Below, in pieces: positions 10,963 through 31,842 of a stretch of DNA of 32,093 bases. A program made the translations under genes and the position numbers. The DNA comes from Veillonellales bacterium (GTDB lineage Bacteria > Bacillota > Negativicutes > JAAYSF01), in contig JBDKTO010000004.1 in the NCBI GenBank assembly GCA_039680175.1, forward strand, positions 1 to 32,093, given 5' to 3'. Position 1 is the first letter of the stretch. Every line of letters begins with the position of its first letter. A model generated the notes under the pieces. It worked only from the letters and a program-made list of their open reading frames with translations, was not told the DNA's origin and ran no database searches.

Positions 10963-11720
10963 GAATTCTCCAGCACTTTGCTTAAAAACTCCTTGGTACG
11001 CGGATGGCTGGGACAGGCAAAAATTTTATCCGGTTTATCATGTTCAATTATGACTCCTTTGTCAAGAACAAGTACTTCATCAGCCACATCTTTGGCAAAA
11101 CGCATTTCATGGGTCACAACCGCCATGGTCATGCCTTCTTTGGCCAGTTGCTTCATAACTTGCAGCACTTCTCCCACCATTTCAGGGTCAAGTGCCGAAG
11201 TAGGCTCATCAAATAGCATGACTTTAGGCTGCATGGCAAGAGCCCGGGCAATAGCGACCCGCTGTTTCTGCCCGCCGGACAGATTATAGGGAAGCACCTG
11301 TGCCTTGTCTTCCAAACCTACCTTTTTTAAAAGATTCATTGCCAAATCTTCTGCATCACTGCGACTCATCTGCTTTAAGGACATAGGGGCCATCGTGATG
11401 TTCTGCAGTACCGTTTTATGTGGAAATAGATTAAAAGCCTGAAATACCATGCCGACTTTCTGTCTGGTCTGATTTAATTCTTTATCAGGAATTTGTACGG
11501 ATTTGCCATTTATCATTTTTCTGCCCATCGGTTTTCCGTCAATGGTGATTTCGCCTTCACTATAGGTTTCCAGATAGTTGATACACCGTAAAAGTGTACT
11601 TTTCCCTGAACCGGACGGACCAATAATAACCACGACCTTGCCTTGCCCAATTGTTAAATTGATATTTTCCAGTACATGATGGTCACCAAAATATTTGTTC
11701 AAACAAGATATATTGATCAT
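10959..11720 (-). CDS. Polar amino-acid ABC transporter ATP-binding protein (GlnQ/HisP type)
   Basis: Walker [11 protein letters not shown]-loop, signature LSGGQKQR, Walker [15 protein letters not shown] and the switch His in [12 protein letters not shown] are all present in 253 aa. The helical insertion and the .EF region place it in the polar amino-acid importer class. It pairs with the permease immediately upstream (ATGA overlap of 4 bp) and the lipoprotein before that, giving a complete importer. The likely cargo is the compound broken down by the enzymes that follow in the same operon. Confidence 0.95.
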
Positions 11721-27531: not shown

Positions 27532-28404
27532 CTACTTCTCCATATTGCTTGCTCGGAACTTCGTCGGTGAAATATGATAATACTTTCGAAATAGGCGACT
27601 GTAATAATTTACGCCTTCAAATCCGCACTGTAATGCTACTTCGGTAATATTAAGCTCATCTTTTTGCAAATATGCCAGCGATTTTTCGAGGCGCAGTTCA
27701 TTAACATAATCCGTCAGTGTTTTCCCAGTAAGCTGTTTAAAAATCCGGCAGAAATAGAACACGGTAATGTTGGCTTTCGCGGCGAGATCTTTTGCGGTTA
27801 TTTTTTCTGTGTAATGCGCGGCAATAAAATTAAGTGTTGCGTCAAACCGCTTAAGGCTGTTTACTTTAGAAGAAACTTCCTCACTCGACATAATCTTATG
27901 AATATGTCCTCTAAGCAGTAGGACAATTAATTGGTAAATGGAGGATTTTACTGCCAGTTCAAAACCTATTTTTTTGGTAAAATACTCGTCGATGGTTTTT
28001 TCTACGCATTTTAATACGTCCGTGTCATTTCGAATCAAATTAAGCAGTGTTATCCGATTTTGTGATAAGGGTGCGACATATTTCGTTTGGCATAAGTCTA
28101 CTTGGTTACTAAATAGAAAAGGGAGATCAACGCGGATGACATAAACCTCTAAGTCGTCGGTGAGACTTTCCATATAATGCAGTTCATTGCTGTTGATTAC
28201 AACAACATCCTTAGCGTATACGATAAAACGTTTCATGTTGCATTCCAGCATGGCGCTGCCGCAAATAAAGTAATACAGCTGCATATGCTCGTGCCAATGC
28301 GTTTTTATCTTGTGCCCGCGAGTTAAATCAGTTTTTAGAAAAATATCTACACCAAAATGAATATCCGGCATTTCTTTATAAAAGTAATCTTTATAATTTT
28401 TCAT
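27532..28404 (-). CDS. AraC-family regulator with cupin sensor domain
   Basis: 290 aa. The N-terminal cupin (HKIKTHWHEHMQLYYFICGS, AKDVVVINSNELHYM) senses a ligand. Two helix-turn-helix units end the protein: ITAKDLAAKANITVFYFCRI with FKQLTGKTLTDYV, then ITEVALQCGFEGVNYYSRLF with RKYYHISPTKFR. ATG 28404 has GGAG seven bases upstream; the longer in-frame start at 28446 has none. It faces away from the MFS operon, so its target could be either neighbour. Confidence 0.9.
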   Translation of the reverse strand: MKNYKDYFYKEMPDIHFGVDIFLKTDLTRGHKIKTHWHEHMQLYYFICGSAMLECNMKRFIVYAKDVVVINSNELHYMESLTDDLEVYVIRVDLPFLFSNQVDLCQTKYVAPLSQNRITLLNLIRNDTDVLKCVEKTIDEYFTKKIGFELAVKSSIYQLIVLLLRGHIHKIMSSEEVSSKVNSLKRFDATLNFIAAHYTEKITAKDLAAKANITVFYFCRIFKQLTGKTLTDYVNELRLEKSLAYLQKDELNITEVALQCGFEGVNYYSRLFRKYYHISPTKFRASNMEK

Positions 28405-28676
28405 TCGCCAACTCCATGTCAATATTATGCTAAATATCAGCAACACAATTATAGCAACTAAGTAATTTTAAGACTATTATAGAACAAGAAACAGATCGTG
28501 TAAATTGCAAGACCGGGCTATCCTGAGATAGTTGCTTTTGCTGAATTTCTCTATGCCGGTTGTTACAATGATTTAATACAATGCCGCAGAAAAACAGAAT
28601 AATCGGGAATTAGGCCCATTAATGTATAACGAGTGGGGCTAATTGACGTGGACATACCAAATGCGGTTGGAGTAAT

Positions 28677-28718: not shown

Positions 28719-28747
28719 TTGACGAAATCAATAATTCATGCTAGCAT
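28719..28747 (+). promoter_or_regulatory. Promoter of the MFS-PadR-MerR-amidohydrolase operon
   Basis: TTGACG (28719-28724), a 17-nt spacer and TAGCAT (28742-28747). The -10 lies inside the left arm of the large palindrome, so anything bound there would block transcription. Confidence 0.5.
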
Positions 28748-28804
28748 ACAGTCATAAGCATATACATGTTAATAACATATATATGCTTATGACTGTATGC
28801 TAGC
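28740..28804. promoter_or_regulatory. 65-bp near-perfect palindrome before the MFS operon
   Basis: Arms of 25 bp are exact reverse complements (28740-28764 and 28780-28804, starting GCTAGCATACAGTCATAAGC). The 15-nt centre contains another palindrome, ATGTTAATAACAT. Only one position pair (28765/28779) fails to match. It overlaps the -10 and would lie at the 5' end of the mRNA, 76 nt before the MFS start. It may be an operator for the PadR or MerR regulators in the operon, or an RNA stem. Confidence 0.8.
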
Positions 28805-28879: not shown

Positions 28880-30049
28880 ATGAATGATGCATTGCCCGAT
28901 AAGAGAAAGATCTTTACGCTATCTATTGCCCATTTACTCAATGACTGGTATATGAACTATATTCAGACTTTGCTGCCGTTTTTGGTAATGGCGGGGCTCA
29001 GTGTCAGCAAAGGCGCTTTTTTGGTATCGGCATTTACGATTACATCCTCTATCTTACAACCGATTTTCGGTTATCTGGTAGATCGGAGAAATCAGCGCTG
29101 GATGGTCTATGTGGGCACAATCTGGATGGCAGGGCTAGTTAGTCTTATTGGCCTGCTCAACAGCTATACGCTGCTGATTTTGGCTGCTGCGCTGTCCGGC
29201 CTGGGAACAGCCGGATTTCACCCGCAGGCATCAGCAATGGTTTCGGCAGTTAGCGGCAGCAAGAGAGGTTTCTTTCAGGCTTTTTTTACGGCAGCCGGAA
29301 ATATTGGCTGGGCGCTGACGCCGGTCATGGTTGTGCCGTTTGTGGAGGCTTATGGGCTAAAATTTACGCCCCTGTTCATTATACCGGGAGTTGTCGTGGC
29401 CATATTGCTGTGGCATGCAGCGCCCAAGGCTTCAGCCAAGCCTAAAAGCGTACCTATGCCGCTCATGTCTGTTCTTCATGATTCTTGGACTGAACTTATA
29501 AAAGTTATAATCGTAGTAGCACTTCGTTCTTTAGCCTACTTCGGGTTAATTGCCTTTTTGCCGCTATATTTACAAACAACCAATGTTTCACTGAAAGTTG
29601 GCAGCTGGTTATTATTTATCATGTTGTTTTCCGGAGCTATGGGCGGCCTTGCCGGCGGATATCTGTCTGATTTATTTGGCAGAAAGCAGGTAATTGTAGG
29701 TTCACTGGTGTTGGCAAGTCCGCTGCTTTATTTATTTCTCAATACAGGCGGTTTTTTAAGCTATGTGTTCTTAGCCTTGGCTGGTGCGGCACTGCTGGCG
29801 TCATTTTCCGTGACGGTAGTGGCGGCGCAGGAGATTCTTAGTAAAAGTGCGGCTATGGCGTCAGGGCTAATGTTAGGTTTTGGAGTTGGCATTGGCGGCC
29901 TTGGCGTAGGAATTGTCGGTGTACTTGCGGAATATACAGGCCTTGCTTATGCTATTAACGTACTAATTTGGCTGCCAATCGCCGCAGGTGTGTTCGGGTT
30001 AACTATGAAGGGCAATATAAAACATTTGACGAATGCTGTTAATAGTTAG
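28880..30049 (+). CDS. MFS transporter, fosmidomycin-resistance (Fsr) type
   Basis: 389 aa with about twelve membrane helices. IAHLLNDWYMNYIQTLLPFL at the start and SGLGTAGFHPQASAMVSAVS are the Fsr/FsmA hallmarks; YLVDRRNQRW and YLSDLFGRKQVIVG are the cytoplasmic loops of the two halves. Probably a drug/proton antiporter in the cytoplasmic membrane. AAAAGGAG precedes the ATG. First gene of an operon that also carries PadR and MerR regulators, which suggests ligand-induced efflux. Confidence 0.88.
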   Translation: MNDALPDKRKIFTLSIAHLLNDWYMNYIQTLLPFLVMAGLSVSKGAFLVSAFTITSSILQPIFGYLVDRRNQRWMVYVGTIWMAGLVSLIGLLNSYTLLILAAALSGLGTAGFHPQASAMVSAVSGSKRGFFQAFFTAAGNIGWALTPVMVVPFVEAYGLKFTPLFIIPGVVVAILLWHAAPKASAKPKSVPMPLMSVLHDSWTELIKVIIVVALRSLAYFGLIAFLPLYLQTTNVSLKVGSWLLFIMLFSGAMGGLAGGYLSDLFGRKQVIVGSLVLASPLLYLFLNTGGFLSYVFLALAGAALLASFSVTVVAAQEILSKSAAMASGLMLGFGVGIGGLGVGIVGVLAEYTGLAYAINVLIWLPIAAGVFGLTMKGNIKHLTNAVNS

Positions 30050-30085: not shown

Positions 30086-30472
30086 ATGGCGGGAAAATCA
30101 AGAAGCGGGCAGGCTTATCGTCATACGCCCGCCTTCATTTTACTTTTTTTGGCACGTGAAGATCTGTATGGATCTGCGCTGTTAAAGGGTATGGAAAAAG
30201 AAATGCCCTGCTATCATACTGATAGTGCAATAATCTATCGTTCCTTGCGGGAACTGGAAAAAGAGGGAGCGGTGGAGTCGTATTGGGAAACAGATACTCA
30301 GGGACCGGCGCGGAAATGGTACAAAATAACGGCGAAGGGTTTGGAAAAACTCGCTGAGTTTAAAAATGACATTGAAATGCGTAAGGCAAATTTTGACTAT
30401 TTTTTAGCTTCCTATAAAATTATAAAGGAAAAAAGCCAAAATAGCGAAGCTGCGGAGAAGATTAAAATATAA
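30086..30472 (+). CDS. PadR-family transcriptional regulator
   Basis: FILLFLAREDLYGSALLKGM, AIIYRSLRELEKEGAVESYW and GPARKWYKITAKGLEKLAEF form the PadR winged helix with its D-S-x-x-x-Y-R-x-L pattern. The last ~35 residues form the dimer helix. ATG 30086 follows AGGGAGAG; an in-frame GTG at 30062 is less likely. 36 nt after the MFS gene. PadR proteins are usually local repressors that bind ATGT..ACAT dyads, and such a dyad is in the centre of the palindrome upstream. Confidence 0.9.
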   Translation: MAGKSRSGQAYRHTPAFILLFLAREDLYGSALLKGMEKEMPCYHTDSAIIYRSLRELEKEGAVESYWETDTQGPARKWYKITAKGLEKLAEFKNDIEMRKANFDYFLASYKIIKEKSQNSEAAEKIKI

Positions 30473-30595
30473 TTTGCTGCTAATCTTAATTTGGATTCAA
30501 TGAATTCTTCTATACACCCGTCCCCCTTTGCTCAGAAAATTCTTGACCTTAACATGGATGTCATACCTTACAATAAGCGAGAGGAGGGAAGAAGG

Positions 30596-30964
30596 ATGAA
30601 GATAAAGGAACTGTCTATGCGGACAGGCGTCAGCCTGCGCTCGCTCAGGTATTATGAAAGCAAAAATTTGCTTGTGGTCAGGCGGCTCGAGAATAGCTAC
30701 CGGGAATATGATGACAGCGCCGTCGAACGGGTCAAAAACATCCAGTTGTATTTAAGCCTAGGCCTGACCACGGATGAGATTGCCGAAATTATTGAATGCC
30801 CAGTGGGAATAGGCAGGGGGCGTCCGCTATGCCGTGCTGCTTATGCGCTTTATCAGGCTAAGCTGGCGGCAATAACCAGGCAAATTACTCTCCTCCAACA
30901 AGTACAGCAGGAATTGCGCACTCGTATTCAGGATTTTGTCGAAGCTGAGGGGGAGATAAGATGA
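30596..30964 (+). CDS. MerR-family transcriptional regulator
   Basis: 122 aa. MKIKELSMRTGVSLRSLRYY with ESKNLLVVRR and SYREYDDSAVERVKNIQLYL is the MerR winged helix; a long coiled coil follows (YALYQAKLAAITRQITLLQQ VQQELRTRI). It has one Cys in EIIECPVGIG and another in PLCRAA. A metal or thiol sensor is possible, but the exact CueR/ZntR-type pattern is not present. GAGGAGGGAAGAAGG precedes ATG 30596. The stop overlaps the next start by 4 bp. Confidence 0.88.
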   Translation: MKIKELSMRTGVSLRSLRYYESKNLLVVRRLENSYREYDDSAVERVKNIQLYLSLGLTTDEIAEIIECPVGIGRGRPLCRAAYALYQAKLAAITRQITLLQQVQQELRTRIQDFVEAEGEIR

Positions 30965-31746
30965 TTATCGACAGCCATGCACATGTTATGCAACCGCTGG
31001 CAAAGGAATTAGCATGGATGGACGAGGCTGGGATGGATAAAACCGTACTGTTTACTACCACGATCCACCCTGAGACAGCGACTAATCTGGACGAATTGTC
31101 AGGCGAGATTGAAAAGTTGTATGCTATGCTTGACGGTACACGTAATCCGGTGGAGGAAAGGATAAAATCCATTGAGAAGCTTACCAAAATAGTAAAGGAC
31201 CATCCTGATAGATTTGTCGGCTTTGGTTCTATTCCTCAAGGATTATCCTATGAGGAAAATGGCAAGTGGCTTGATAACTATATCATAAAAAATGGTTTGC
31301 GTGGTGTGGGCGAACTTACGCCAGGCTCGGGTGAGGTCGGGAAACTGGAGTCGCTGTTTCAGGCGGCTGAGGACGCAGGGAGACTTCCGCTGTGGGTGCA
31401 TGCTTTTTTACCCCTTACCTGGCGGGATATCAAGGAACTGTTAGAGCTTGCGCGGCACTATGCCTCCGTGCCGCTGATTCTGGGACATCTGGGCGGTCTG
31501 CACTGGCTTGAGACGCTAAAAGCAGTGCGGGATTTGCCAAGTGTATATTTGGATTTGTCGGCCGTCTACACGACTATGGCTCCGTCCTTTGCGGTTAAAG
31601 AATATCCCGAGCGCACGCTGTTTGCGTCAGACGCGCCTTTTACCTCGCCGCTGGCGGCGCGAAATCTACTTGAATCGTGCATCGAAGATGCCTATATGCG
31701 GGAGGGTGTGCTGGGCGGCAACATCGCCAAGCTGTTAAATCTATAG
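30961..31746 (+). CDS. Amidohydrolase-2 family TIM-barrel hydrolase/decarboxylase
   Basis: 261 aa. MIIDSHAHV (H-x-H metal ligands), PLWVHAFLPL, PLILGHLGGLHWLE (third His) and TLFASDAPFTSP (catalytic Asp) define the amidohydrolase_2 (ACMSD/gamma-resorcylate decarboxylase-like) family. The substrate is unknown. It is translationally coupled to merR (ATGA), so it belongs to the efflux operon; a role in inactivating the compound exported by the MFS pump is plausible but unproven. Confidence 0.88.
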   Translation: MIIDSHAHVMQPLAKELAWMDEAGMDKTVLFTTTIHPETATNLDELSGEIEKLYAMLDGTRNPVEERIKSIEKLTKIVKDHPDRFVGFGSIPQGLSYEENGKWLDNYIIKNGLRGVGELTPGSGEVGKLESLFQAAEDAGRLPLWVHAFLPLTWRDIKELLELARHYASVPLILGHLGGLHWLETLKAVRDLPSVYLDLSAVYTTMAPSFAVKEYPERTLFASDAPFTSPLAARNLLESCIEDAYMREGVLGGNIAKLLNL

Positions 31747-31794
31747 TAAAAAAGCTGGTATCTGAACTGAGCCAGGAAAAACAGACATTGCAAG

Positions 31795-31842
31795 AAAAGC
31801 CTCCAGTCGTAGGATGAAACTACGACTGGGGGCTTTTCTTTT
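31795..31842 (+). terminator. Terminator of the MFS operon
   Basis: AAAAGCC.CCAGTCGTAG and CTACGACTGG.GGCTTTT form a nearly perfect stem of about 17 bp followed by CTTTTC. Confidence 0.88.

Follow-up and report, generated by a model that had tools for sequence, protein, structure and literature searches.

The promoter of an MFS transporter-padR gene pair in the window (the whole 32,093-nt stretch of DNA analysed here) carries a 65-bp, almost perfect palindrome. Judging from comparison with homologous promoters, the centre of this palindrome most likely serves as operator for the PadR-like regulator encoded two genes downstream. We propose that the palindrome is an autoregulatory PadR operator of the MFS-padR unit and that its outer right 18 bp were probably copied by quasipalindrome template switching.

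The palindrome and its genetic context

A repeat search identifies an inverted repeat whose two 32-nt arms (28740-28771 and 28773-28804) are 97% complementary: 25 perfect outer pairs are followed by one mismatched pair and six inner pairs around a single central base, 28772. The geometry given in the initial annotation, 65 bp with 25-bp perfect arms and a one-mismatch centre, is thus confirmed. The palindrome outscores every other inverted repeat in a 416-kb sample of the same genome, and its folding z-scores are -11.7 as RNA and -11.1 as DNA, with none of 200 shuffled sequences as stable. The other 28 inverted repeats that score at least 14 in this sample have loops of 2-12 nt in nearly all cases, and many are followed by T-rich, terminator-like tails. 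An intrinsic terminator was considered for the palindrome and rejected: its GC content is low (32%), it lacks a T-tract, and no terminator is called there. Further copies in the genome had been named as the sign of a mobile repeat or transposon trace; the 4.08-Mb genome contains a single copy of the 65-mer and a plasmid search found no DNA similar to the palindrome, so a mobile repeat is excluded. Rfam searches with the palindrome returned mainly microRNA models that fit any long stem, all under the cut-off. Elsewhere in the genome, a 31-bp perfect palindrome, ACCAAAGTGTTTACTTAGTAAACACTTTGGT, lies at positions 11654-11684 of locus L082 (contig C43); it has a one-base centre and no T-tract. Among the inverted repeats listed for the 416-kb sample, only this one and the 65-bp palindrome have so short a centre.

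The left arm contains the -10 element of a predicted, sigma-70-like promoter, TTGACG-17-TAGCAT, whose predicted +1 falls at about 28754; that the palindrome lies over a -10, as had been suggested, is borne out (Table 1). The four-gene operon proposed at the same time is doubtful. The MFS and padR genes, separated by 36 bp, may well be transcribed together, but merR is preceded by a promoter of its own, with a 20-bp spacer; a long distance between the -35 and -10 elements is typical of MerR-activated promoters. The merR and amidohydrolase genes therefore probably form a separate unit, and two units are likelier than one. In the stretches examined from the best-matching relatives, Sporomusa ovata (L010), Desulfocucumis (L013) and L028, padR and an MFS gene are found together, with neither merR nor the amidohydrolase gene; padR is the second gene of the unit in the window and the first in L010 and L013. 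The PadR-like regulator passes the PF03551 cut-off (56.7 bits vs 27). Downstream of the amidohydrolase gene, a strong terminator-like inverted repeat occupies positions 31792-31840.

Table 1. Coordinates of the palindrome, its predicted operator elements and the surrounding genes in the window.
Feature	Position	Strand	Basis and remarks
65-bp near-perfect palindrome	28740..28804	none	Repeat search; one copy; ranks first among inverted repeats of the 416-kb sample
Predicted sigma-70 promoter, TTGACG-17-TAGCAT with TG extension	28719..28747	+	Promoter call; aligns with the Sporomusa ovata padR promoter
O1, degenerate left dyad, AGT-CATAA-GCA	28750..28760		Centre 28755, 17 bp from O2
O2, central perfect dyad, TGT-TAATA-ACA	28767..28777		Centre 28772, the palindrome centre
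O3, degenerate right dyad, TGC-TTATG-ACT	28784..28794		Centre 28789, mirror of O1
Predicted minimal operator, GCATATACATGTTAATAACATATATATGC	28758..28786		Homologue-conserved half-sites; space for two PadR dimers
Outer right arm, TTATGACTGTATGCTAGC	28787..28804		Left promoter arm (-10 region) in reverse complement; nothing equivalent in the closest homologue
MFS transporter, first gene of the unit	28880..30049	+	PF07690; NorA chains matched weakly by sequence
PadR-like regulator (small PadR type), presumed palindrome ligand	30086..30472	+	PF03551; PDB PadR relatives
MerR-type promoter, TTGACC-N20-TACAAT	30543..30574	+	Directly upstream of merR; 20-bp spacer
MerR-like regulator	30596-30964		Followed by the amidohydrolase gene
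Amidohydrolase	30961-31746
araC	27532-28413		Divergent; own promoter-like site at 28504-28476

A dyad lattice at padR promoters

No such palindrome is found directly upstream of the MFS orthologs; the site proved instead to follow padR, which is the first gene in L010 and L013, and the region upstream of padR in both loci contains CATATACATGT, as in the window. PadR homologues were gathered from the host's class, from its phylum and from another class, yielding a set of 45 promoters (the window's own and 44 from other genomes), and further searching of the G746, G585 and G416 classes added few new loci.

The promoters of the PadR homologues share TGT-N5-ACA dyads repeated with a 17-bp period at or beside the -10. 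In the first 29 promoters, the 17-bp spacing separates 24 dyad pairs, whereas 300 shuffled sets averaged 0.24 such pairs and never exceeded 4; 33 dyads are perfect, vs 2.2 in shuffles. Half-sites located 4 and 13 bp on either side of the dyad centre are kept in homologues, and those at 21 bp are kept weakly. The predicted PadR site is thus a lattice, TGT-N5-ACA-N6-TGT. Published PadR sites have an ATGT-N8 to N10-ACAT spacing (PMC3506622, PMC5428041); the homologue promoters depart from this canonical operator, showing TGT-N5-ACA and ACA-N6-TGT elements with the 17-bp period, and no description of such alternating 5/6-bp half-site spacing was found in the open papers searched.

The window site is the best match to the dyad motif genome-wide and the sole strong one, with a perfect dyad, O2, at the very centre of the palindrome and two flanking dyads, O1 and O3, that have two mismatches each. 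Since the dyad motif accompanies PadR homologues across genomes, the PadR encoded downstream is the likely ligand. The initial annotation had favoured PadR and had envisaged several regulator dimers on the palindrome: the former is supported, as the palindrome centre matches an operator that precedes PadR homologue genes across many genomes of the phylum, and the latter fits the presence of multiple half-sites.

Two observations concern individual padR loci. In L051, a promoter-operator block of ~50 bp is cleanly absent upstream of padR as compared to the congeneric L050, the upstream DNA being otherwise identical. In L052, a 44-bp perfect palindrome, AACAACTCCCATATAGTGTAATCTTACACTATATGGGAGTTGTT, occupies positions -113 to -70 relative to the padR start; it lies upstream of the operator and is centred on TGT-N6-ACA, not TGT-N5-ACA.

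Origin of the outer arms

The outer arms of the window palindrome extend past the operator. The left side (28719-28777) is identical to the S. ovata padR promoter (L010) at 42 of 59 positions, above all 500 shuffles, and has only a marginal match to the more distant L013 (40/500 shuffles); the outer right arm yields no alignment to the L010 promoter that is better than shuffles. Long palindromes are absent from the closest homologues, L010, L013, L027 and L041. The operator lattice itself occurs in homologues that lack long palindromes, i.e., as a pre-existing imperfect inverted repeat.

Long palindromes centred on a dyad are present at other padR promoters: in L077 (60 bp), L030 (46 bp), L069 (41 bp), L066 (41 bp) and L055 (37 bp), with arms that are mostly unrelated. 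Dyad-centred palindromes that score at least 15 (37 to 65 bp) are found at 6 of the 45 promoters vs 0.09% of swapped-arm pairs, and lowering the threshold to at least 12 gives nine palindromes, all of them at PadR-MFS loci (Fisher p 0.0003, with shared ancestry ignored). L066 and L067 are congeneric and hence do not represent independent cases; L044, L048, L053, L033 and L027, in which the palindrome resembles a terminator for the preceding gene or is centred off the dyad, were left out of the count. Averaged over the family, the excess of symmetry is not significant beyond ~16 bp from the centre, and the long arms are thus confined to a subset of promoters. Most mismatches in the long palindromes are only a few bases away from the centre, and the outer arms of these palindromes are perfect.

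Template switching is the likeliest source of the outer arms, as suggested by the symmetry itself and by the more distant relatives. In E. coli, template switching perfects quasipalindromes and is promoted by agents that crosslink protein to DNA (PMC7202029). In the window, two or more PadR dimers would bind side by side to 28758-28786, covering the +1 and the beginning of the transcribed region and blocking RNA polymerase, and release of PadR by a ligand would induce the transporter. Such an operator array would present a ready-made quasipalindrome at which replication may stall, and we speculate that the bound repressor itself favours the stall. The nascent strand would then pair back on itself at the operator core and extend outward with the other arm as template: the outer right 18 bp would be a copy of the left (promoter) arm, and the imperfect array would have become a near-perfect 65-bp palindrome in one step. 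The outer arms would be tolerated by-products, not contact sites. Central mismatches flanked by perfect outer arms are as expected if the core primed copying; central mismatches are also expected if the centre is simply not contacted.

Alternatively, the full 65-bp symmetry may be selected, either through contacts of the outer arms with additional PadR dimers or with an assembly of higher order, or through a supercoil-sensing cruciform at the -10. The recurrence of long dyad-centred palindromes, with all nine that score at least 12 located at PadR-MFS loci, is consistent with selection, as are the still nearly perfect arms and the stability of the DNA hairpin, yet the closest homologues do without long palindromes, the outer arms vary by lineage and fall off the half-site pattern, and the family average has no excess symmetry beyond ~16 bp from the centre; we consider selection of the full symmetry unlikely. 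Slightly less likely is a scenario in which long, near-perfect palindromes arise time and again, independently, at PadR-MFS promoters because the symmetry itself works, as a platform for higher-order PadR assembly or a supercoil-sensing -10 cruciform, with repressor-stalled replication driving the switching that creates them.

Other explanations

The palindrome could also act at the RNA level, as a 5'-terminal stem that protects the mRNA; a 5' mRNA stem had been raised in the initial annotation. The leader is predicted to fold, from a +1 at ~28754, into a structure that starts with a ~16-pair stem. However, with the +1 inside the left arm, only ~18 inner pairs would be usable; the outer 14 pairs are upstream of the start on one side and so lie outside the RNA, and RNA pairing cannot account for the full palindrome. 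The predicted +1 is at or beyond the palindrome centre in L055, L049 and L076, and an RNA stem therefore cannot be the common reason for these palindromes. We regard this role as improbable.

The genes for MerR and for the divergently encoded AraC are both close by, and the palindrome might be the operator of either regulator. Yet each gene has a promoter or promoter-like site of its own, merR is unlinked to PadR-MFS in the closest relatives, and the dyad motif tracks PadR across genomes. The promoter at the palindrome has a 17-bp spacer, where 19-20 bp would be expected for a MerR-regulated promoter, and the palindrome begins at the -10. Binding of MerR, proposed earlier alongside that of PadR, finds no support, and an operator for MerR or AraC appears about as improbable as the mRNA stem.

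It is hardly credible that the palindrome arose as an artefact of assembly or fold-back, acts as a terminator or is left over from a mobile repeat: the assembly is a draft of 121 contigs in which a long palindrome could be misassembled, but this one is present in a single copy, is not called as a terminator, lies in the contig interior with a good -35 on one side and the MFS gene on the other, has one internal mismatch and is matched by the same phenomenon at equivalent sites in other genomes.

Comparison with known systems

Small PadR repressors encoded beside a transporter, with an operator built as an inverted repeat, are already familiar; what is unusual here is the repeated occurrence of overgrown palindromes. 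The LmrR/lmrCD system of Lactococcus lactis likewise combines a small PadR repressor, an adjacent transporter and inverted ATGT/ACAT-like half-sites in the promoter, and two LmrR dimers occupy one operator, just as space for two is predicted in the window (PMC5428041). The two systems differ in the half-sites, which are 8-10 bp apart in L. lactis and alternate at 5 and 6 bp with a 17-bp period here, in the transporter, ABC there and MFS here, and in the growth of the window operator into a 65-bp palindrome. The best NCBIfam model for the window's regulator is PhaQ (TIGR02719), but its score of 47.5 against a cut-off of 139.35 places the regulator outside the family by that model, and no PHB genes are adjacent among the genes examined. 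As in the E. coli quasipalindromes (PMC7202029), an imperfect inverted repeat would have been lengthened and perfected by copying of one arm; there the target was a reporter gene, whereas here it is an operator, the copied segment is ~18 bp, and the event is reconstructed from natural sequence.

Implications for PadR regulation

About half of the small PadR repressors in our sample adjoin MFS transporters, and the dyad lattice offers a testable operator code, TGT-N5-ACA with a 17-bp period, for these widespread regulators. In the overgrown palindromes, template switching appears to have rewritten operators in nature; by this mutational route a binding site could become symmetrical in a single step. 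The arms vary from lineage to lineage, so symmetry that arose by mutation can be separated by experiment from symmetry required for binding.
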